Assembly (NCBI GenBank): GCA_002729315.1
Contig: PBTW01000096.1
Span: forward strand, 1-52,822
Source of the DNA: Gammaproteobacteria bacterium
Lineage (GTDB): Bacteria; Pseudomonadota; Gammaproteobacteria; Pseudomonadales; Pseudohongiellaceae
Length of the DNA stretch: 52,822 nucleotides
Direction of reading: 5' to 3'
Positions 39,029 to 50,087 of this stretch are shown here, piece by piece. Made by a program: the position numbers and the translations under genes. Position 1 is the first letter of the stretch. Every line of letters starts with the position of its first letter. The notes under the pieces were generated by a model. That model was not told where the DNA came from. It ran no database searches and worked only from the letters and a program-made list of their open reading frames with translations.

Positions 39029-40399
39029 TTAAAGCCTCAGGATGGTTTGTGCATAAAAATAATGGCTGTGCCCTTTGTTAATCAGGTCCATATATGCGCC
39101 GGGCGCAATATACACATACCCGCTATCAAGCGTGAGTTTGCCAGAGAATAGATGCCACCGGACTCGCGTCTCCAGCTGATCGCCGAGATGCCTTTCCCCC
39201 ATACCGCCCTCATGCCGATAGCGCGTGATGCGCCAGCCCTGTGCGGGAGCGGCAAGCGAGGGTCTCTGCCATCGGATGTACGCATCCACGTTGCTGGCTG
39301 GCTGCAGATCCAGCATCAGACCCGGAGAACTGGTATTGACCCGCTGAAAAGCGCGGAATGATCCAGTCGGACCGAAGTCGGGGCGGGGCACGCCGAAAAG
39401 GTGATCCAGCTCGTTGGATTCGTTATCTAGTGGATCCTTATCACCGCTGCCATAGTGATAAACAAAACTGAGACGTGGCTGCCAGCTTGTCTGAAAGCTG
39501 TAGCCTAACGAGAGATGATAGTACCGCGCCTCATGATCCCGCAGTGGTTCTGATGCGTCCAACGCCGGCGCATCGCCGACTTGATACACGGCTTCAGCAT
39601 CATAATGCCACCGGCCTGCAGCTGGGCTTCTGAACAGACGGATGCCGGGATTCAAAACATCGAAACGCTGGTTGGCCGGACGATCCCGTCGCTCATCGGC
39701 TCCCAGAAAGTAGAACTGAAGGAAATCTCCCTGAGAGCCCAGTGCTGTAGTGACGTAAGCACCCCAGAAGAAGTCACTCGACTGTTTGTCGGGACGGGGT
39801 TCGTTGTCGATCCAGTCGCCATCTACCAGTCGCATTGTTGGCCGGGTGTAGAACATTTCTATGGTCGTTCCGTCTGACTCGAGACCAGCATGAACGCCTG
39901 CGAAGGAATTTATGGTGTTGCGATACCGATTACGGGCAACAAAACGCCGGCTACCCTGATCCATTGTAAACCGGCCTACCTTGACGAATCCGCTGTCGCC
40001 CTCACGAAAAACGTCTTTGATCGGGAAACTCACATTGGCCTGCAGTATATCCAGAGGATTGGCGAAAAAGCTGTCCAGCGGCGAACCCTCATCCGTCAGA
40101 TAGGTCCGCATATCGGCAAATTCAGCAGTCAGAGAGAACCTGTCGAACCTGGCCTCTGTCTTTATCAGATTGCGCCACTCAAAACCCTGATCGCTCCCCT
40201 CAAGGCCGTTGCGAAACTGCCCGTCCAGGAACTGGATGCGGCTTTGCTGCTCGAACCCAACGGACAGCCAATCGGGCAGCTCATCATTCTGTTGAGCATG
40301 AGCTGATCGGGGGACCGTCAACGCGAGGATCAACGACATAAGAGGAGCAGAAAAATGCTGAATCATGCGCACAAGGTTCATTCGAGAGTAATGAGACAT
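39029..40399 (-). CDS. Outer-membrane alginate-export-family porin
   Basis: A 456-residue protein with a signal peptide (LMSLILALTVPRSAHAQQ) and alternating beta-strands throughout, ending in YFYAQTILRL, a C-terminal strand fit for the outer-membrane insertion machinery. It matches the alginate_exp family (PF13372) that includes AlgE: GFEWRNLIKTEARFDRFSLTAEFADMR, KVGRFTMDQGSRRFVARNRYRNTINSFAG, and DAYIRWQRPSLAAPAQGW. No alginate genes are nearby, so a general anionic-substrate porin is more likely than a role in alginate export. The ATG of MNLVRMI (40381) is an alternative start; neither has a good ribosome site. Confidence 0.87.
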   Translation of the reverse strand: MSHYSRMNLVRMIQHFSAPLMSLILALTVPRSAHAQQNDELPDWLSVGFEQQSRIQFLDGQFRNGLEGSDQGFEWRNLIKTEARFDRFSLTAEFADMRTYLTDEGSPLDSFFANPLDILQANVSFPIKDVFREGDSGFVKVGRFTMDQGSRRFVARNRYRNTINSFAGVHAGLESDGTTIEMFYTRPTMRLVDGDWIDNEPRPDKQSSDFFWGAYVTTALGSQGDFLQFYFLGADERRDRPANQRFDVLNPGIRLFRSPAAGRWHYDAEAVYQVGDAPALDASEPLRDHEARYYHLSLGYSFQTSWQPRLSFVYHYGSGDKDPLDNESNELDHLFGVPRPDFGPTGSFRAFQRVNTSSPGLMLDLQPASNVDAYIRWQRPSLAAPAQGWRITRYRHEGGMGERHLGDQLETRVRWHLFSGKLTLDSGYVYIAPGAYMDLINKGHSHYFYAQTILRL

Positions 40400-40583: not shown

Positions 40584-43151
40584 TCAGAAGTTTGAAAGGG
40601 ACAGAAGACGCTCGGCGCGAAACAGGGTATCCGCGGCCTGCAGAATTTTCAGCCGCAACTGTCGGTTGTAATCCGGACGCTGAGCCAGAAACCCTCTGAC
40701 GTCAGCTGCCGCCGCCGGTGAGTTGTGTCTGCCAAGTGTGGCTTCCAACCATCGCATCGGGAAGAAAATGTCGCCGGTGATCTGTATCTCCTCCAGCAGC
40801 TCAAGGCTGGATAGTATATACGCTTCAGCATCACCTCTTCTCAGGGGGTGATGCAGCGCATCAAGTGCGCCAATTACCCAGGACTCAACGGCCCGGTTGT
40901 CTTCGTCGGCAAGCGTTTCAAAAAAAGCCTTTCGGGCAAGCGGATCGGGGGAAAGTGCCGGGCGAATCCAGTCGAAGCGGCGCTGCCGGTCTGTATTGGC
41001 GATCTGCGCCAGTTGCCGGGTCACAATCTGGTCTGCCTGCTCCGGTGATTTAATCGCCAGAACGGTGGCAAGCGCAATTCGATCAGTTTCAGCAAGGATC
41101 AGCCCCTCAACCACGATCTCTGAGCGCCACACCCGTAGCAACTGACCGAGCCCCCCATCGGTCAGCACCAGATCACGGTACGCCTCAAAGAATATCTTTT
41201 TGCTGCTCGGGCTGTCCGCGGTCAGCATCAGTGCCCACAGCGATTCTTCAAAGCTGCCAGCAGCGTTAGCTCGCGCTTCCTCACTGAGAAAATTCCAGTA
41301 GAGAATGCGGACCTGACGCAACATCAGATTGAGCAGCAGTTGATTGTCTTCAAGCTCGATGATAGGAATCAGTCGATTGAGATACTCATCAGCGGATAGT
41401 CGATTACCTTCCAGCAGATTTTCAAACAGTGAAACCAGCAAACTGCCCTGCTGAATGTCGTCGAGACTTTCCCATTCGGACAGCAACTCCGGATCAGCGG
41501 GGAACAGACCATATCCGCGGCCGTCCGCGTTCAACAAGACCGCAGATGCCTCGGAATCGAAAACCGCAATCTCCGTCCGCCCGCTATCAACCGAGTCAAG
41601 CCGCCAACTACCTTCGATCCGCCTACTCACAGAAAACTGCTGGGGCCAGACGCGGCCTGTCCCCTTTGGGTCGACTTGTCGCAGGCCTGTGTTTCCTGCC
41701 AAATCTGCTAGCAAAAAATGCGGGCGGCCCGGCGTGTTTACCCACACCTCACTCCAGCTTCGCAAATCAACTTCCGTTTTACGTTCCAGAATGCCAATCA
41801 AATCCTGCCAGGTGGCATTTCCATAAGCAAAGTTGGCCAGATACTCCCGAATGCCTGCGCGAAACTCAGCCTGGCCGGTCAGAGTCTCCAGCTGCTGCAT
41901 CATAATCGGCGCTTTGTTGTAAATGATATTGCCGTAAAGCGTCCCAGCCTCGTTCAGATTATGCAGGTCCTGACGAATCGGGTTGGCGCCCTCCGTTCGG
42001 TCGACGCCGTAAGCACTGGGAAAATGCCGGATCAGAAAATTGAGATCATGGTTTATCCCGGGAAAGCTCGGATTGACGATCTTGGCAGCCAAGAAATTTG
42101 CGAATACTTCTTTAGTCCACACGTCATTGAACCATTCCATAGTCACCAGATCGCCGAACCACATGTGTGCTGTTTCATGGGCGATCAGACTTGCTCTGCT
42201 CAGCAGCTGGGCCTGACTCGGTTGCGCATTCAATAACAGACTGTCCGCACGATACTGAATCGCCCCGACATGCTCCATGCCTCCGTACTGAAAGCTGGGA
42301 ATCAGTGCAAAATCCAATTTCTGGAAGGGATAGTCAATCGCGGTGTACTCTTCCAGCCAATTCAGTGCGGCGCCGTGTAAGTCAAAAATGGCATCCAGAT
42401 TGCGCGCGACTTTTTCCCGGTCGCTCTCTCGGTGCAGCATCGTCATTTGACGACCGTTTATCTGGCGAGTCTCGCGCTGAAACTTCCCGGCGACAAAGGA
42501 GAACAGGTAGGAGCTGATCAACTCCGTGGGCGCAAAGCTCAGGCGTTTTCTCTCCCCCAGAGCTTCAAGCTGCTGGAGCGGCGCATTGGCAATGGCCTCC
42601 CAATCGGCGGGCATAGTCAGCGTCAACGTGTAACGTGCCTTCAGGTTTGGCTGATCAAACAGAGGAAAGGCTGTTCGCGCCCGATCCGGGACAAAAAGTG
42701 TATAGAGAAACTCCGGGTTGCGATTGAGTGAGCTATCTCCGGCCGTGAATTGCACGCTTATTATGTTTCGGCCGAGGCGCAGCTCTCGTGCGGGGATAAT
42801 AAGATGCTCAGATTCAAAGCGATAATCCGACTGTTGACCGTTGACTTCGACGGCGCCGATCTTTTCTGCCGATTCCTTAAAATCCAGCACCAGCGACTCA
42901 TCGGTGTCCGAGAGATCAAACTCAATGACAGACGACGCCGTAATGCTTTGACTACGGCTGGCGGGCAGATCGAAGCTGAGGTCATAGCTCAGTCGGCTCA
43001 GGACTGATTTTCGATGCTCGGCGAGTTGCTGTGTCACTCCTGGCTTCAGTGTCTCGGCCAGCGTCGATTGCCCCACCACCGCGCCCAACAGAAACAGGAC
43101 TGTCAGGAAGGTCAGCTCCTTTAACGATCTGCAGCGCGGCCTGAAATCCAT
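40584..43151 (-). CDS. Exported M1-family aminopeptidase
   Basis: An 855-residue zinc metallopeptidase. A signal peptide (FLTVLFLLGAVVGQSTLAE) sends it to the periplasm. The catalytic motif is HETAHMWFGD (HEXXH at 325-329) with the third zinc ligand Glu348 in FNDVWTKEVFANFLA. The exopeptidase loop, usually GAMEN or GGMEN, reads GGMEH (290-294), and the usual WLNEGFA reads WTKEVFA. Both differences mark a subfamily. The rest fits the M1 four-domain structure, including a long helical C-terminus with an ERAP1-like fold. It probably trims N-terminal residues from imported peptides. Start at 43151; no operon partner. Confidence 0.93.
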   Translation of the reverse strand: MDFRPRCRSLKELTFLTVLFLLGAVVGQSTLAETLKPGVTQQLAEHRKSVLSRLSYDLSFDLPASRSQSITASSVIEFDLSDTDESLVLDFKESAEKIGAVEVNGQQSDYRFESEHLIIPARELRLGRNIISVQFTAGDSSLNRNPEFLYTLFVPDRARTAFPLFDQPNLKARYTLTLTMPADWEAIANAPLQQLEALGERKRLSFAPTELISSYLFSFVAGKFQRETRQINGRQMTMLHRESDREKVARNLDAIFDLHGAALNWLEEYTAIDYPFQKLDFALIPSFQYGGMEHVGAIQYRADSLLLNAQPSQAQLLSRASLIAHETAHMWFGDLVTMEWFNDVWTKEVFANFLAAKIVNPSFPGINHDLNFLIRHFPSAYGVDRTEGANPIRQDLHNLNEAGTLYGNIIYNKAPIMMQQLETLTGQAEFRAGIREYLANFAYGNATWQDLIGILERKTEVDLRSWSEVWVNTPGRPHFLLADLAGNTGLRQVDPKGTGRVWPQQFSVSRRIEGSWRLDSVDSGRTEIAVFDSEASAVLLNADGRGYGLFPADPELLSEWESLDDIQQGSLLVSLFENLLEGNRLSADEYLNRLIPIIELEDNQLLLNLMLRQVRILYWNFLSEEARANAAGSFEESLWALMLTADSPSSKKIFFEAYRDLVLTDGGLGQLLRVWRSEIVVEGLILAETDRIALATVLAIKSPEQADQIVTRQLAQIANTDRQRRFDWIRPALSPDPLARKAFFETLADEDNRAVESWVIGALDALHHPLRRGDAEAYILSSLELLEEIQITGDIFFPMRWLEATLGRHNSPAAAADVRGFLAQRPDYNRQLRLKILQAADTLFRAERLLSLSNF

Positions 43152-43493: not shown

Positions 43494-46187
43494 TTGTCTG
43501 AAGTACTCGACGCCAATGCGGGAAGCGAACCGCGACCTTCCACTGTTCCCGAAGGTCAAAACAATCCATTGCAAAAAGCGATTACCCATAACGCCCTAAT
43601 TCGCGCCCACGGGATCGCCGCATTTACCATGCTTCTGCTGGCAGTTACCTTCGGAATCGTCGCTTCCTTGCAGTTTTTCCTGCCCGAGGCGACCAGCGCG
43701 ATAGCCAGCTGGGGCCGACTCCGCTTCGCCCACACGCAGGGCATCATGCTGGGATGGCTGGGCAATGCGTTTATAGCGTTTCTATATCTTGCTGTACCGA
43801 TATTAAGTGGGCGACCTGTCACTAGCGAAAGGCTTGGCTGGTATCTGTTTGGCCTTTGGAATTTAGGCGTTCTTCTGCCTGGATGGCTTTTGGTGCTAAA
43901 CGGCTACAGCCAGCCACTGGAATGGGCAGAATTTCCGCTGCTGGTCGATGCTGCCATGATTGGTGGTCTCATTCTTGCGGCGATTCAATTCTTACCACCT
44001 TTTTTTAAGCGCGGGTTTGAAAATCTGTATGTCTCAAGCTGGTACATCATCGGTGGACTGGTGTTCTCGCTGATGAGTTTTCCAATGGGCAACATCATTC
44101 CGGAATTTATACCCGGTGCTGCGGGTGCCGCCTTCAGTGGGCTCTGGATTCATGATGCTGTGGGCTTGTTTGTGACACCAATGGCCCTCGCGATTCTCTA
44201 CTATGTAGTTCCTGCCAGTACGGGCCGCCCGATCTTCAGTCATTTCCTGTCAATGTTAGGGTTCTGGGGTCTATTCTTTCTCTACCCCTTAAACGGAACC
44301 CACCACTACATTTATTCGGTCATCCCCATGGCCACCCAGAACATCGCGATTCTTGCCTCGACCATGCTGGGACTGGTGGTAGTAATTGTTGTCAGCAATC
44401 TTGTGCTTTCTCAGCGCGGCGCCGGCAGGCTGGCGAAAGATCCTGCGCTGCGCTTTGCCTCAACGTCTGTGTTGTTCTATCTCATCGTCAGCCTGCAAGG
44501 CTCCGCGCAGGCCAACATGGGATTCAGCGAGACAATTCATTTCACCGACTATGTCATCGGACATTCCCATCTCGCAATGCTGGGTTTCGCGACCTTTGCC
44601 GGCATTGCGGGAATCCTCCATGCCTGGCAAAAAATGGCGGATGCGCCGTATCACGCCGGAGCCATTGACGCCGCGTACTGGCTGACCACGGTCGGCGTAA
44701 TCGTAATGGTCAGTGACCTGACGCTCGCTGGCCTAGCGCAGGGAGAACTCTGGAAAGCCGGGGCGCCATGGGTCGTCTCGCTGCGAGCCTCCGAACCCTA
44801 CTGGTTGATAAGAACACTGTCAGCCATTCCGATCACCGCCGGCTTCGGGCTGTTGTGCTACGGCTTACTCAAAGGGCCAAGAGGAGCCGGCGCACGAGCG
44901 CTCGCCGAAGCCAGGGCAACGATCAGTCAAGCCGGACCATCTGGCACCGACCAAAATCATCAGAATCCGGTTAAAGCGCTGCGGATGTCGTACATTGCAG
45001 CCTCAGTCGCAGGGGTCACCTTCTTCATATTTTCGGTTTCGCTGCTGGGGCTGCTGCCTCAGTCAACCCTGAATGATCAGATCGCGTTACTGGCACCGGC
45101 AGCCAACTTAGAACTTACCGCCTCCGAGCACCGGGGCCGGCAAATCTACGCTAGAGAAGGTTGCGCCTATTGTCATACGCAGCAGATCCGGTTCATCGAG
45201 TCTGACATCGAACGCTTCGGTGCTGCAACCATGGCATGGGAAGACAGCATGGAAACTCCTCACATGCTCGGGACACGGCGGATTGGGCCGGATCTGTCCA
45301 GGGCGGCGAATACCCGAACAGATCAGTGGCACTTCGCTCATCTGTTCGCGCCTCGGAGTGTTGTACCAAGATCAATCATGCCCTCTTATCCCCAATTTTT
45401 CGATGGCACACCCACTCAGCCCCGCCAGGAGGCACTGGATCTGGTTGCCTACCTCAACACGCTGGGTAGAAGTCGGGAGTTGGCGTGGCCGGAAGGAGAG
45501 ATCGCCATGCGCGAGGCTGCAGGGGACGATCAGTGGACTATGATGTCGCTAGACGCCGACCAGCTTAACGCGCATCCGGCGCGCACTCGCCCTCGTGGCA
45601 ATGCCCCCAGCCTGAGGGGTCAGACACCTGCCCGGCAAGGCCGCAGGCTGTGGGCACAAAACTGCGAAGGCTGCCATGGCGAAGACGGCGCCGGTGATGG
45701 CCCTGCCGCAGCCTGGCTCAAGCCTGCCCCAGTCAATCTGACGGAGCATGAATACCGCGCTGATTTGCTAGCTGACATACTCTATAACGGGGTATACGGC
45801 AGCTCGATGCCGGGCTGGCGCGACCACAGCCCTGCGCAACTGGCCGCGCTAGTTCAAGTCATCCAGAGCTTCAGCAGAGTCGAGCCGATCATCAGGGACA
45901 GCAGCACCGCACTCGGTGCCGAAATTTTTCAGACACACTGCGCCGAATGCCACGGCGAGGCGGGTGATGGTAACGGCTTTGCGGTCGCGAATTTGCCCAT
46001 TCCAATTCCACCCACCGACTTCACCCGTGAGCGACTCAGCATGGCCGCCAGCCTCAGGGTTCTGAATCAGGGCGTTGCCGGAACCACCATGGCGCCCTGG
46101 GGAAACCGGCTCAGCGATTCTGAGATCATGGCCGTCGCCAGCTATCTGCAAACGCTTTATGAGCCTGAAGCAGGAGCCGGCGAATGA
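43494..46187 (+). CDS. Fused cbb3-type oxidase: CcoN + CcoO-like + two cytochrome c domains
   Basis: An 897-residue single polypeptide. Residues about 30-470 are CcoN with roughly twelve helices. Metal and heme ligands align: His80 (RLRFAHTQG) and His359 for heme b, His357 for heme b3 (GHSHLAMLG), His220, His270 and His271 for CuB, and the cross-link Tyr264 (FLYPLNGTHH). Residues about 497-660 are CcoO-like: a single anchor helix, then GCAYCH (557-561), TRRIGPDLSR and VVPRSIMPSYP. Two more cytochrome c domains follow with CEGCH (724-728) and CAECH (816-820), in the place of diheme CcoP. The start is TTG at 43494 after a GAGAG site. The stop overlaps the next ATG. No ccoGHIS genes are adjacent. 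Confidence 0.93.
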   Translation: MSEVLDANAGSEPRPSTVPEGQNNPLQKAITHNALIRAHGIAAFTMLLLAVTFGIVASLQFFLPEATSAIASWGRLRFAHTQGIMLGWLGNAFIAFLYLAVPILSGRPVTSERLGWYLFGLWNLGVLLPGWLLVLNGYSQPLEWAEFPLLVDAAMIGGLILAAIQFLPPFFKRGFENLYVSSWYIIGGLVFSLMSFPMGNIIPEFIPGAAGAAFSGLWIHDAVGLFVTPMALAILYYVVPASTGRPIFSHFLSMLGFWGLFFLYPLNGTHHYIYSVIPMATQNIAILASTMLGLVVVIVVSNLVLSQRGAGRLAKDPALRFASTSVLFYLIVSLQGSAQANMGFSETIHFTDYVIGHSHLAMLGFATFAGIAGILHAWQKMADAPYHAGAIDAAYWLTTVGVIVMVSDLTLAGLAQGELWKAGAPWVVSLRASEPYWLIRTLSAIPITAGFGLLCYGLLKGPRGAGARALAEARATISQAGPSGTDQNHQNPVKALRMSYIAASVAGVTFFIFSVSLLGLLPQSTLNDQIALLAPAANLELTASEHRGRQIYAREGCAYCHTQQIRFIESDIERFGAATMAWEDSMETPHMLGTRRIGPDLSRAANTRTDQWHFAHLFAPRSVVPRSIMPSYPQFFDGTPTQPRQEALDLVAYLNTLGRSRELAWPEGEIAMREAAGDDQWTMMSLDADQLNAHPARTRPRGNAPSLRGQTPARQGRRLWAQNCEGCHGEDGAGDGPAAAWLKPAPVNLTEHEYRADLLADILYNGVYGSSMPGWRDHSPAQLAALVQVIQSFSRVEPIIRDSSTALGAEIFQTHCAECHGEAGDGNGFAVANLPIPIPPTDFTRERLSMAASLRVLNQGVAGTTMAPWGNRLSDSEIMAVASYLQTLYEPEAGAGE

Positions 46188-46354
46188 TCAGCGCACTGAT
46201 TGTTTATGGGACCATTGCTGCAGTTGTGAGCTATAGCCTGCTTTACTGGCTGAAGCCGGGGTGGCGCCAGAGTATTGAGCAGCCAAAGCACATTTTCCAG
46301 CGTCAGCTGGACGGGTATGATAGTCAGCAAAAAACAGACAAGAGCGACCCGTGA
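46184..46354 (+). CDS. Hidden 56-residue single-helix protein, CcoQ-like in position
   Basis: A 56-codon gene that overlaps both neighbours: its ATG overlaps the oxidase stop (ATGA) and its TGA overlaps the GTG start of the downstream cytochrome (GTGA). The product begins MISALIVYGTIAAVVSYSLLYWLKPG, one membrane helix, then a polar tail (HIFQRQLDGYDSQQKTDKSDP). Size, topology and place in the operon match small cbb3 subunits such as CcoQ/FixQ, though I see no clear sequence identity. The exact four-base overlaps on both sides argue that it is translated, with tight coupling of all three genes. Confidence 0.75.
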   Translation: MISALIVYGTIAAVVSYSLLYWLKPGWRQSIEQPKHIFQRQLDGYDSQQKTDKSDP

Positions 46355-47304
46355 ACCAAGATCGAGCCCTTCACTTACAGCGTGGCGCGGCGCAGGCCGC
46401 ACTGCTGATTACCAGCGCCATCGGCCTGTGCGTGGTTCTGGGAACAATGTGGCTACAGAGCGACCGGCCAGCAGAGCGCTATACCGAGCCTAACGTGGAG
46501 TACGGACGTCAGCTCATTCGTGACACCGCGCGAAATATGGGCCCGGCCCATGAAGACCCGGGTATGCGATATACTGGCACCTTCATGGACTGCGCCTCAT
46601 GTCACCTCGACACCGGTACCCGACCCGGCACGCTGTCGCTGTTACAGGCTGCCCAGCGCTATCCGCGATTTTCCGGCCGCGACGGCAAAGTGGGAGATCT
46701 GAGGGACCGCATCAATGGTTGCATGACGCGCAGTATGGATGGCAAAGAGCTAGATCGAGATAGCGTCCAGATGCGCTCCATGGAAATGTATATTAGACAA
46801 CTTAATAAGCAGTACGCCGTCATGGGAGAGAGTCGCCAGTTGCCGGACGAGCCCCCCGCGTTTTCAGAGCCCGATCGGGCCGCCGATGTAACTGCCGGCG
46901 AGCGGGTCTTTGAAGCGAATTGTGCGGTTTGTCACGGCACCAACGGTCAGGGCTTGCTAGCTGCGATCGATAAATCAGAGGGCTATCTGTTTCCTCCGCT
47001 GTGGGGGCCGGACAGTTTCAACAACGGCGCTGGCATGACGCGTCTTCTGACTGCGGCGCGCTTTATTAAGGCGCGGATGCCTCTGGGCAAGCCAGATCTG
47101 ACTGACGACGAAGCCTACGATGTCGCAGCGTACATGAATTCCCACGAAAGACCACAGCGACCAAATTTGGAAGTCGACTATCCTGATCTGAAGAATAAGC
47201 CTGTCGACAGCCCCTATCCGCCATACGCTGATGAATTCCCGATCGAACAGCATCGGCTGGGGCCGTTCCAGCCCATCCGTGAGTTTTACCGCGGGCTGGA
47301 GTAA
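46351..47304 (+). CDS. Membrane-anchored diheme cytochrome c, thiosulfate dehydrogenase (TsdA) family
   Basis: A 317-residue diheme cytochrome: N-terminal anchor helix (AALLITSAIGLCVVLGTMW), heme sites CASCH (81-85) and CAVCH (191-195). TsdA-family stretches are FMDCASCHLDTGTRPG, RINGCMTRSMDGK, and LFPPLWGPDSFNNGAGMTRLLTAARFIKARMPLG, then YDVAAYMNSHERPQ. Cys124 in NGCMTRSM lies where TsdA has the unusual cysteine axial ligand of heme 1, and Met243 is a likely heme 2 ligand. TsdA oxidises thiosulfate to tetrathionate (or the reverse). Start GTG at 46351 overlaps the small upstream gene. Co-translation with a cbb3-type oxidase suggests direct electron delivery. Other SoxA-like or sulfur cytochrome roles are possible. 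Confidence 0.85.
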   Translation: MNQDRALHLQRGAAQAALLITSAIGLCVVLGTMWLQSDRPAERYTEPNVEYGRQLIRDTARNMGPAHEDPGMRYTGTFMDCASCHLDTGTRPGTLSLLQAAQRYPRFSGRDGKVGDLRDRINGCMTRSMDGKELDRDSVQMRSMEMYIRQLNKQYAVMGESRQLPDEPPAFSEPDRAADVTAGERVFEANCAVCHGTNGQGLLAAIDKSEGYLFPPLWGPDSFNNGAGMTRLLTAARFIKARMPLGKPDLTDDEAYDVAAYMNSHERPQRPNLEVDYPDLKNKPVDSPYPPYADEFPIEQHRLGPFQPIREFYRGLE

Positions 47305-47427: not shown

Positions 47428-48130
47428 CTAGCCTGCGTACAGCAGACTGTAGCCACACTCCTGCGACCGGGTGGCCGCCATGACGCCGGCAGGCACAAAC
47501 CGACTGTTTTTGATGTTTTCCTGAATCAGTTCCATATAGTGGCTGGCTGCAGACTACCCGGTGACCGCAGAGAGCCTGCGGGGCATGGTGTGCGTCGCGC
47601 GATTGCAGATGGCGAAGTGAGCACTGCGCCCGCGGACATGATCAAGCGTATTGCCGATGTTGCCAAAATCTGCTCCTTCGAGGTTCAGCGGATTTACCTC
47701 AAGCGGACTGTCCCCATCGGGAACAGAAAGTCTGGTCACACTGCTGAACACTTCTCCGTATTTCTGCGCCATGGCATCGGTATAGCAAAGAGCCGTCGCC
47801 GCGTGTCGGAAACAGACAATTATCTCGTACTCAGCATCTGCGCCAGCGTAGTCTTCCCGATGTACGGACAAAATGTTATTCGCATAAAGCACGGCGGTGA
47901 CGCCCCCTCACTAAATCGATGCAAACCCTGAGGTCCTTGTCGGCAGCCAGACTGCCCATCCGGGCGTCCCTGTCGAGACGAGATGGTCGAAACCCTTCGC
48001 CATCCAGACCCTGCGCCGCGGCTGATTAGCTGCCGGCAGCCATAGCGCCAGCGGTTGCAGACATCCCGACACCCGCGAGAAAGCGCCGCCGATGGGTCCG
48101 CTGTGCGTTCCGGCTCTGGTCCTCACTCAT
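47428..48130 (-). pseudogene. Decayed Tat-exported DsrE-like protein gene
   Basis: Reading from the ATG at 48130, the product begins MSEDQSRNAQRTHRRRFLAG, a clear twin-arginine signal (RRRFLAGVGMSATAGAM). The frame is then interrupted by TAA at 48028-48026. It continues in frame (SAAAQGLDGEGFRPSRLDRDARMGSL in part) to 47876, and shifts frame near a run of five C at about 47903-47907. The second frame (47892-47554) includes EIIVCFRHAATALCY, MAQKYGEVF and FAICNRATH. A TAG at 47556-47554 interrupts it, and the remaining frame ends with RFVPAGVMAATRSQECGYSLLYAG and TAG at 47430-47428. These pieces fit a Tat-exported DsrE/F-superfamily protein. With two in-frame stops and one shift it is almost surely inactive. 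Family assignment is from memory of the pattern. Confidence 0.75.
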
Positions 48131-48161: not shown

Positions 48162-48746
48162 CTACTGGTTGGAATATTCCGTGCCGTTAACAGGAATCAT
48201 TAAATGCGCACCCGAAGTTCCGGATCGCATCATCCAAGGAGTGCCCTGGCCTGCAAGGGAATTGTCTCGCTGCGAGCCGGTCGGCATGCCCAGTTGCTCC
48301 GCAGTGGCGTTGGGAAGCGACACCACGAACAAATACTGGATGCGATCTGCGGTATCAAAGCGTCGATAGCTCAATGCACCGAACTGGCGCGTAGGAATGT
48401 CACCGGCATCTTCAGCGCGTTGCAGCGCCATCTGAAGTTCCTCGCCTCCCAGGCCCTGCGCAGATAACTTGGCCTGCAGGTCACGTCTCGCGCGCTGAGA
48501 AACAGCGCCGCAGCGGGTGAAACCCTCTTCGTCAGTGGGCTGGCATTCAACGTGGTTACCGCCGACTTTAAGAGTCACGCGATTACCTTCATCGTCATAG
48601 GTATAGACGGTCGCATCAGCGCGAAGATCCATTGGCAGCGGCGAGAGCGCCTTTTCAATGATCGCCTGATCAGTTTGCGCGACAGCGCCTGTGGAACAGA
48701 GCAAGCCCGCCGTAATCAAGACAGCAGTGTGTCTTATTCTTTTCAT
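48162..48746 (-). CDS. Exported protein of unknown function
   Basis: The start is the ATG of MKRIRHTAVL (48746), preceded by ATGGGAGATTGCT (GGAG site); the frame is open upstream to 48923 but that part has no ribosome site. The 194-residue product has a signal peptide (HTAVLITAGLLCSTGAVAQTD). The mature part includes a basic-acidic mix, two cysteines that could form a disulfide (NHVECQPTDEEGFTRCG) and a helical segment (RRDLQAKLSAQGLGGEELQMALQRAEDAG). I do not recognise a family. It is downstream of no clear operon partner; the broken DsrE-like gene follows 31 nt after it on the same strand. Confidence 0.72.
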   Translation of the reverse strand: MKRIRHTAVLITAGLLCSTGAVAQTDQAIIEKALSPLPMDLRADATVYTYDDEGNRVTLKVGGNHVECQPTDEEGFTRCGAVSQRARRDLQAKLSAQGLGGEELQMALQRAEDAGDIPTRQFGALSYRRFDTADRIQYLFVVSLPNATAEQLGMPTGSQRDNSLAGQGTPWMMRSGTSGAHLMIPVNGTEYSNQ

Positions 48747-49119
48747 AGCAATCTCCCATGAGCTATCCTGTAGAGCTGTCTTGTTACTCAGCATCATTGT
48801 TATGTTCAGATACGCACAGGCCTTTGCGTCGTCGTCGCCCGTCACGTTATGGACTTCTAACATAACTGCTCTGCCAGGGAGTGAAAAGTCATTATCTGTT
48901 ACAGCGATGCCACCCGGCACCAACCGCAGTCTGATGCTGTGCAGCAGTAAAGTGACCCGCCCGTCTTACCGCACCTCGGAACTCACACCCATGCCCGCAC
49001 GCGCGTCGTTATTAACTCCGTAAGCCGGATTATCGATACGCGCATCGCCAATCCGGCCTGGTCTGTTCATACTGCCTGGCTCTTGGCCTGACAGGCATCC
49101 GGAAGCTCACCCTGGTCAG
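48747..49119. other. Intergenic region with a stretch of interrupted open frame
   Basis: 373 nt between the exported unknown protein and bacterioferritin. On the minus strand, in frame with the exported protein, an ATG at 49070 opens a frame. It is stopped once by TAA at about 48968-48966 and then stays open to the real ATG at 48746. It could be a leader peptide or decayed coding sequence, or chance. No terminator or promoter is clear. Confidence 0.3.
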
Positions 49120-49608
49120 TTAGGCATGGAGCTTCACCTCGCCGAGTTGTGACTGGGTGTAAAGCTCTATGCCCAGACGCTTGATCATATCAAGCTGCTG
49201 CTCTAGCCAGTGAGCATGGTCCATTTCGGTATCATCGAGTAATGGGACCAACGCATCCTTGGTTACAAAATCTCGTTCCTGCTCGCACAGCGCAATCGCA
49301 CTCCTAAGGCGGCTTGCCACCTCGTATTCAACGCGCAGATCGCTTTCCAGCATAGATTTGATATCAGAGCCCACCTTGAAGCCTTCGCGCGTCACCATAT
49401 CTGGCAGACCTTCGAGAAAGAGCATGCGCTCAATAAGGATGGTGGCATGGCCTTTCTCATCATCGAATTCATGGCTGATACGGTCGTACAGTTTTCGTAA
49501 TCCCCAATCCAAATACATTTGAGAATGAATGAGATACTGATCCATTGCAGCCAACTCCATCGCCAACAAGCCATTCAACGCGTCAATAATTTTCTGATTG
49601 CCCTTCAT
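49120..49608 (-). CDS. bfr: Bacterioferritin, ferroxidase-type subunit lacking the heme methionine
   Basis: A 162-residue bacterioferritin subunit (four-helix bundle plus C-terminal helix). Di-iron ferroxidase ligands are all present: Glu18, Glu51, His54, Glu94, Glu128 and His131 (one-residue offset to E. coli at the end). The position of the heme-ligating Met52 is lysine (DDEKGH), so this subunit alone should not bind heme in the usual way. It would oxidise and store iron in a mixed shell with the neighbouring heme-type subunit. It starts 2 nt after that gene ends. No bfd gene is next to it. Confidence 0.92.
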   Translation of the reverse strand: MKGNQKIIDALNGLLAMELAAMDQYLIHSQMYLDWGLRKLYDRISHEFDDEKGHATILIERMLFLEGLPDMVTREGFKVGSDIKSMLESDLRVEYEVASRLRSAIALCEQERDFVTKDALVPLLDDTEMDHAHWLEQQLDMIKRLGIELYTQSQLGEVKLHA

Positions 49609-49610
49609 GC

Positions 49611-50087
49611 TCAGTCTCCATCAATAGTTTGAGATTGGATATAGTTCTGAATACCCATTTGTTCGATCTGGTATTCCTGAGCCTCCAACCAGTCAATGTA
49701 GTCTTCTTCCGCTTCTAGTATGTCACCCAGCAACTCACGACTGACATAATCTTTCTCAAGCTCACAAAGAACGATTGCCTCTTTCAGCGCGGGAATTTGC
49801 TTAAGCTCGAACTGCTGATCCAGACTCAGCATCTCGGCGGTGTGTTCGCCGATGAAAAGCTTGCCAAGATCCTGCAGATTCGGAAGACCTTCCAGAAAGA
49901 GAATTCGATTCATCAGTGAATCAGCCTGTTTCATGTCCTTGATAGACTTGTTGTAGCACGCCGCATTCAATCGAGTGATACCCCAGTTCCGGTACATCCG
50001 CGCATGGAGAAAGAATTGATTGACCGACGTCAGTTCGAGTTTGAGTATATTGTTCAACGCCGAAACAACGTTTTTTTGACCCTGCAT
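49611..50087 (-). CDS. bfr: Bacterioferritin, heme-binding subunit with a degenerate ferroxidase site
   Basis: A 158-residue bacterioferritin. The heme ligand Met52 is kept (KDMKQ), and the heme-site region NRILFLEGLPNLQDLGKLFIGE is standard. The ferroxidase centre is broken: Glu51 is Asp, His54 is Gln and His130 is Tyr, while Glu18, Glu94 and Glu127 remain. This is the mirror image of the next gene. The pair thus resembles the alpha/beta bacterioferritins of Neisseria, Pseudomonas-type and magnetotactic bacteria, which build mixed 24-mers. First gene of the operon; ATG at 50087. Confidence 0.92.
   Translation of the reverse strand: MQGQKNVVSALNNILKLELTSVNQFFLHARMYRNWGITRLNAACYNKSIKDMKQADSLMNRILFLEGLPNLQDLGKLFIGEHTAEMLSLDQQFELKQIPALKEAIVLCELEKDYVSRELLGDILEAEEDYIDWLEAQEYQIEQMGIQNYIQSQTIDGD

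Follow-up and report, generated by a model that had tools for sequence, protein, structure and literature searches.

Why should a cbb3-type oxidase be contained in a single polypeptide, and from where would such an enzyme draw its electrons? The question is raised by the window analyzed here, the whole 52,822-nucleotide stretch of contig PBTW01000096.1 (assembly GCA_002729315.1, family Pseudohongiellaceae), in which a first-pass annotation had noticed CcoN, CcoO, and diheme cytochrome domains in one reading frame. We conclude that the product of this gene is likely a single-chain, five-heme C-family (cbb3) oxygen reductase coupled to thiosulfate oxidation, a proposal that derives from sequence comparison. 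The assignment to the C family follows from invariant cofactor ligands and an invariant tyrosine (Tyr264), from nearest sequences and folds that are those of cbb3 oxidases, and from a tree that places the chain away from nitric oxide reductases (NOR) at 100/100. The coupling to thiosulfate is suggested by linkage to a gene for a TsdA-type thiosulfate dehydrogenase, by retention of the TsdA ligands, by overlapping reading frames, by replacement of TsdA with a sulfite-dehydrogenase-like gene at some loci, and by operons on plasmids. The thiosulfate dehydrogenase and a small membrane protein are operon partners that the annotation had missed. The relevant features, all on the + strand, are as follows.

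43494-46187, +: predicted single-chain C-family oxidase, CcoN-CcoO-c-c, 897 amino acids (aa), TTG start (open reading frame, Pfam, relatives, alignment)
43590-44873, +: CcoN part, about residues 33-460 (Pfam COX1, AlphaFold2 helices, residues; nearest fold 3mk7 CcoN)
44970-45473, +: CcoO-like part, about residues 493-660, with one anchor helix, CAYCH, and Met629 (FixO, 3mk7_B, 9g6b_B)
45591-45878, +: first extra cytochrome c domain, about residues 700-795, with CEGCH and Met772 (Pfam, alignment)
45891-46163, +: second extra cytochrome c domain, about residues 800-890, with CAECH and Met866 (Pfam, alignment)
46184-46354, +: small protein, 56 aa, with one hydrophobic stretch (sequence, 19-row alignment, motif scan)
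46351-47304, +: TsdA-type thiosulfate dehydrogenase, 317 aa, with two hemes and a hydrophobic N-terminus (PDB matches, Pfam SoxA-TsdA, ligands)

The frame is open for all 897 codons, as claimed, and its TTG start recurs with the preceding sequence in five near relatives (L028, L030, L031, L032, and L104). The probability that a misassembly or frameshift artifact joined separate genes is negligible. In favor of an artifact are the fragmented state of the genome, which comes in 136 contigs (the window being one), and the 35 related loci in which the genes are separate. However, a scan of a genome collection, with alignment of the CcoN parts, yielded a set of 82 related loci (the best 80 of 200 relatives, plus L009 and L010), of which 43, from other assemblies, have CcoN and CcoO in one frame; 41 of these show all three c-heme motifs, and L033 and L100 were counted as fused though cut after the first. 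The gene is also present in 10 of 25 same-genus genomes (the window's own included), nearly full length and uninterrupted in seven of them, again counting its own, and in pieces only in three (G005, G011, and G023). A 6.6-Mb single-chromosome record (L059, OX638378.1), itself a metagenome-assembled genome, has the same layout as the window. The junctions between domains, where the annotation had asked for a check, were examined through these relatives, and an assembly artifact is rejected from the same-genus genomes and related loci together.

The domain content is likewise as described. Pfam recognizes COX1 (37-444), FixO (510-637), and two cytochrome c stretches, in agreement with the three reported heme motifs, CAYCH (C557), CEGCH (C724), and CAECH (C816), which are kept in all 35 rows of an alignment of fused relatives. 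The named CcoN ligands and tyrosine (H80, H220, H270, H271, H357, H359, and Y264) were all found and are invariant in the same rows, as are E143, E146, and the candidate methionine ligands of the three c hemes (M629, M772, and M866). In a wider set of 102 CcoN rows, the six histidines of hemes b and b3 and CuB are kept throughout, apart from one row that is gapped at H80. The chain thus carries ligands for hemes b and b3, three hemes c, and CuB, plus a candidate cross-link tyrosine. Among solved structures, matches were obtained to 3mk7_A for the CcoN part (1e-36) and to 9g6b_B for the CcoO part (4e-27). An AlphaFold2 model of the chain, built with 35 sequences (mean predicted local distance difference test [pLDDT] 79, predicted template modeling score 0.80), has 12 membrane helices, then one CcoO helix, then the cytochrome domains (helices counted by hand). 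After the single CcoO helix, no further helix of more than 17 residues occurs in the model, i.e., no CcoP membrane helix is seen. The C-terminal diheme part is predicted to take the place of CcoP, as the annotation had it, with three Pseudomonas CcoP chains matched colinearly across both domains in a profile comparison.

Is this, then, the canonical oxidase with its genes fused? The description as a cbb3 oxidase in one chain stands insofar as the protein is of the C family, with the order CcoN-CcoO-diheme, but not as canonical CcoNOP simply joined. In the second of our trees (37 hand-chosen rows, NOR as outgroup; L127 and L128, which are other COX1 genes, and the short L130 were left out), the 19 rows taken from the window's oxidase family group together at 100/100; the 11 canonical cbb3 rows (also 100/100) form the adjoining clade, across a long branch, and L010 and L119 form a third. 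One clade of all CcoO-c-c oxidases is not rejected by an approximately unbiased test (p 0.53) and is not thereby proved; long branches meet there. The chain reaches neither the canonical CcoN equivalog TIGR00780 (160.1 bits versus a cut-off of 583.15) nor the NCBIfam models NF011053 (CcoN/CcoO bifunctional, 274.6 versus 1080 bits) and NF011054 (CcoO/cytochrome c bifunctional, 149.3 versus 447 bits); these two each span part of its domain order, and it is a member of neither. At the position of P. stutzeri residue 203, every window-family row has Gly, whereas 17 of 17 canonical rows have Trp. The canonical CcoNOQP of P. stutzeri (3mk7) resembles the window's oxidase in its cofactor ligands, active-site tyrosine, CcoO-like heme, diheme domain, and C-family branch; the window's enzyme differs in being one chain, in having Gly for Trp203, and in the absence of a visible CcoP helix. 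Judged from the tree, the family is a separate clade of C-family (cbb3) oxidases and not a canonical CcoNOP that happened to fuse.

The tree and the structural comparison also bear on whether the chain might belong with the non-oxygen reductases of the C/NOR group, for instance as a nitric oxide reductase. In a Foldseek search with the model, cbb3 CcoN ranks first at 3.5e-18, followed by NOR chains as the next family (6e-11). Such an activity is nonetheless very improbable, as Tyr264 is present in 102 of 102 CcoN rows and the tree's four NorB-like sequences, identified by visual inspection of their motif, group apart with 100/100 support.

The loss of Trp203 suggests a further possibility, that the enzyme is a protective sink for O2 or sulfur compounds and does not conserve energy, the change to Gly having altered or abolished proton pumping. 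The Gly is found in every row of the family, and a further, separate oxidase gene of the COX1 family (G000:C56) in the window's own genome would remove the need to rely on the fused oxidase. We consider a sink unlikely, given that Tyr264, S253, and Y236, of which we take the latter two to be cbb3 proton-path residues, are retained in nearly all 102 rows. By a hand-read alignment, Y264, S253, Y236, and H220 correspond to P. stutzeri Y251, S240, Y223, and H207. The terminal tyrosine of the proton path is described, in the portion of a review available to us, as cross-linked to a CuB histidine (PMC8780969).

A full fusion of this kind had been called unusual by the first-pass annotation, but one has been described for Nitrospina gracilis (PMC3578206, PMC10839748), whose three cbb3 subunits, fused in one 954-aa protein, were reported in 2013 (PMC3578206). 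A three-subunit cbb3 fusion as such is therefore known. According to the available part of that paper, the Nitrospina protein resembles the window's chain in having CcoN, CcoO, and diheme parts in one chain and in the loss of Trp203 for Gly. It differs at the first CuB histidine, where the published description gives the pattern His202-Gly203-Tyr205-Tyr208 (His202 and Tyr208 being reported in Nitrospina and Sinorhizobium; PMC3578206) and the window has SGLWIHD; the pattern positions are S215, G216, W218, and D221 in the window's chain, and only the Gly is kept. A link to thiosulfate dehydrogenase, which the window family has, is not mentioned in the available part of PMC3578206. The Nitrospina-type pattern is carried by L010 and L119. 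Two other Pseudomonadota oxidases of the CcoN plus CcoO-c-c kind differ from each other at this motif, L119 (G254) being Nitrospina-like (HGLYIHY) and L120 (G148) representing a third type (QGFFMHN). The tri-heme CcoP of Neisseria is comparable in that a cbb3 subunit has gained a cytochrome domain by fusion, which changes its partners, as seen in the accessible portion of PMC2924362. That fusion lies inside CcoP, and ccoN, ccoO, ccoQ, and ccoP remain separate genes, unlike in the window. Among the literature matches listed, there was no paper on a TsdA-linked fused cbb3 oxidase, on the separate clade, on the small conserved protein, or on repeated fused/split change, a weak absence because bioRxiv preprints and most subscription papers lay outside the search.

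What, then, would supply the electrons? The oxidase stop codon overlaps the start of the small-protein gene (ATGA), and the stop of the latter overlaps the GTG start of tsdA (GTGA). The TsdA product matches Allochromatium TsdA (4v2k, E 7e-36) and a TsdBA fusion (5lo9, E 1e-37) in the PDB. All of 57 aligned TsdA rows keep both CxxCH motifs, the Cys ligand (window C124), Arg120, and Met243, and 56 keep Arg110 and Lys240, which is presumably the Lys of the Lys/Met position at heme 2. Arg110 and Arg120 are the pair assigned to the substrate. A hydrophobic N-terminus is common to all 57 rows and could serve either as an anchor or as a signal that is cleaved off. For the A. vinosum enzyme, the available part of PMC4423706 names Arg109, Arg119, and Cys123.

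The linkage extends well beyond the window. Among the 67 of 82 loci that are informative (at least 1.5 kb of downstream flank), TsdA lies on the same strand and no more than 2 kb downstream of the oxidase in 61 and directly upstream in three (Acetobacter, Komagataeibacter, and Paraburkholderia); in total, 64 of the 67, representing at least two phyla, have the two genes side by side. At two loci without TsdA (L098 and L101), what is found upstream instead is a molybdopterin sulfite-dehydrogenase-like gene together with a monoheme cytochrome, and L107, which is cut at its 5' end, has neither gene. A sulfite-dehydrogenase-like gene is present in L009 and L100, outside the 67, and in L057 besides TsdA. 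On a plasmid of Paraburkholderia fungorum, the order is diheme cytochrome, TsdA, CcoN, CcoO-c-c, and small protein; successive genes among the first four share 4 bases, and DsrE and sulfur-transport genes are adjacent. The plasmid's TsdA is 33% identical to that of the window. A plasmid of Acetobacter ascendens has the same gene order, a DsrE gene nearby, and a CcoO with three heme motifs, and its TsdA is 41% identical to the window's over 201 residues. DsrE and rhodanese genes recur near the oxidase loci.

These arrangements have to be weighed against a role as a general cytochrome c oxidase, fed mainly from bc1 via soluble cytochromes, with TsdA as one of several inputs. The C-terminal diheme domains do resemble CcoP, which accepts electrons from cytochrome c, and a separate diheme cytochrome precedes TsdA in Paraburkholderia and Acetobacter. 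We nevertheless judge a general role to be rather unlikely, as a TsdA or sulfite-dehydrogenase-like gene adjoins the oxidase in 66 of 67 loci. The tight operon of oxidase, small protein, and TsdA suggests, as far as gene order can tell, a dedicated wire from thiosulfate to O2.

Several observations weigh against such a wire. The separate diheme cytochrome of Paraburkholderia and Acetobacter could be the real acceptor there. The diheme profile scores better against the Kuenenia cytochrome 6h5l_B (E 8e-31) than against any CcoP chain (best E 5e-18), and a TsdB origin of these domains is unsupported, both the Kuenenia cytochrome and the CcoP chains outscoring TsdB. The pLDDT falls below 50 at residues 481-498, 578-586, and 660-665 and at 212-215 near a CuB histidine, so the model does not establish a heme path. 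The comparisons are also limited in their own terms: TsdA is absent from all 17 canonical ccoNO control loci, but their flanks are short (up to 1.5 kb) and mostly occupied by ccoP. In 16 same-genus genomes, a SoxA/TsdA domain occurs in six of seven with the fused oxidase (the exception, G005, has its oxidase cut at a contig end) versus none of nine without (Fisher 0.0009), which adds little because a single linked locus does not provide independent evidence. The best 80 of 200 CcoN-pattern matches were left unthinned, so near relatives are over-represented. Finally, TsdA enzymes are able to work in both directions, according to published abstracts.

The small protein between oxidase and TsdA deserves separate consideration. 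Its residues R28, E32, P34, K35, and F38 are invariant in 19 rows. A motif built from these same loci, so that the counts are not independent, is found just 3' of CcoO-c-c in 65 of 73 loci (50 with a stricter version) and in none of the 73 when the complementary strand of these stretches is read. By eye, L043 has the protein as well, and L101 has a similar one without the Lys. With E values of up to 10 allowed, the best Pfam match of the 19 rows was 0.003, in a single row; neither this nor any NCBIfam match was convincing, and FixQ matches two of the 19 weakly, at 0.04 or worse. Profile alignment with hhalign gave P values of 5.5e-4 against a 4-row CcoS profile and 3e-3 against a 9-row CcoQ profile, compared to 1.6e-3 for CcoQ versus CcoS as a control; the CcoS value improves on this control by too small a margin for the protein to be assigned to either family. 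The protein is probably a structural subunit that replaces the lost CcoP helix or CcoQ.

In the mechanism that we propose for thiosulfate-coupled O2 reduction, TsdA, which its hydrophobic N-terminus probably tethers to the membrane, would oxidize thiosulfate to tetrathionate at its Cys-ligated heme. From the second TsdA heme, the electrons would reach the pair of cytochrome c domains at the C-terminus of the oxidase, which would act as TsdB or CcoP, and would then pass through the CcoO-like heme c and heme b to heme b3-CuB-Tyr264, where O2 would be reduced to water. Protons would enter by a cbb3-type K-path (Y236, S253, and Y264 are kept). In TsdA, electrons move from the catalytic heme to the second heme and then to a partner, as stated in the accessible part of PMC4423706, and TsdB, a diheme His/Met cytochrome, accepts them from TsdA and is proposed, in the part of PMC9237845 available, to feed a cbb3 oxidase. 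That system is like the one described here in its TsdA partner and its diheme His/Met acceptor. The difference is that the window's diheme unit is built into the oxidase chain and has a profile that is not specially TsdB-like. By analogy, TsdA may reduce this unit directly, and the fixed-stoichiometry electron wire envisaged by the annotation is plausible for a single chain of this composition. More tentatively, and somewhat short of an even chance in our estimation, the oxidase, small protein, and membrane-held TsdA could form a stable thiosulfate:oxygen oxidoreductase complex in which TsdA reduces the diheme part directly, bypassing quinones, bc1, and soluble cytochrome c; such a unit would have spread through Pseudomonadota, Acidobacteriota, and probably additional phyla, some variants being linked to sulfite dehydrogenase.

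If the coupling is real, one cbb3-like branch would serve specifically to discharge electrons from thiosulfate, a function fixed in both protein and operon, and would not be a general terminal oxidase. The oxidase gene could then mark thiosulfate oxidation in unexpected bacteria, e.g., marine Pseudohongiella relatives and Acidobacteriota. A single chain with five hemes would also be a simple system for C-family electron transfer and for the role of Trp203.

How did the fused form arise? CcoO-c-c is one protein in every one of the 82 loci where it is seen whole. The 35 loci with a separate CcoN include 33 that show CcoO-c-c with three motifs (L081 and L083 were counted as split though cut), and four loci fall in neither group (L087, L093, and L099, which are cut, and L096, with broken frames). 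In the family tree, which excludes L002-L008 (six copies of named loci, and L008, not a copy but dropped alongside), a gammaproteobacterial group (38 rows, 36 fused and 2 cut; Shimodaira-Hasegawa-like approximate likelihood ratio test 97) sits among split acidobacterial lineages, and four fused/split changes are required. The simplest reading for the gammaproteobacterial group would be a single fusion; outside it, the tree does not distinguish fusion from separation. A search of 398 Pseudomonadota genomes gave 91 matches at 1e-50 (the window's included), nearly all with a stop between CcoN and CcoO, and the only uninterrupted whole-chain match besides the window was L010. A pattern search of viral contigs picked out 38 stretches, and no relative is encoded in any of them.

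The genomic surroundings offer some further observations. No SoxB above the cut-off was found in 12 same-genus genomes; SoxB-like matches occurred in nine of 16 genomes, none above the cut-off (45 versus 550 bits in the window's own genome). There is no exact FNR box in the window and one loose match, at 41340, away from the operon. FixS (CcoS) and PF12156 (the CcoI N-terminal domain) were found in none of 16 same-genus genomes (G000-G015) and in six of seven others. Their lack was considered as a mark of this oxidase and rejected, as the canonical ccoNO of G009, G011, and G012 is also without FixS and PF12156. In another same-genus genome (G004:C6:7165-9184), a COX1 gene is in three pieces, through either a broken gene or sequencing errors. 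One neighboring gene is degraded in the window itself:

47554-47892, -: truncated copy of a conserved Tat-exported neighbor protein (cluster 2), recognized by comparison with relatives

The cluster 2 protein is also broken in L028 and L032 and is whole in L030, L031, and L104. Three of six members tested match the NCBIfam thiosulfate dehydrogenase NF052225 weakly (best E 1e-7), and three do not. In 16 loci, the oxidase has nearby, on the other strand, a conserved protein without a Pfam match (cluster 4; 48162-48923, - strand, in the window). At 49120-50087 (-) are two adjacent ferritin-like genes, bacterioferritin-like by eye (Pfam was run on the first). An alginate-export-type outer membrane protein (PF13372) at 39029-40399 (-) adjoins an M1 peptidase gene, and an M1 peptidase occurs near the oxidase in seven loci.

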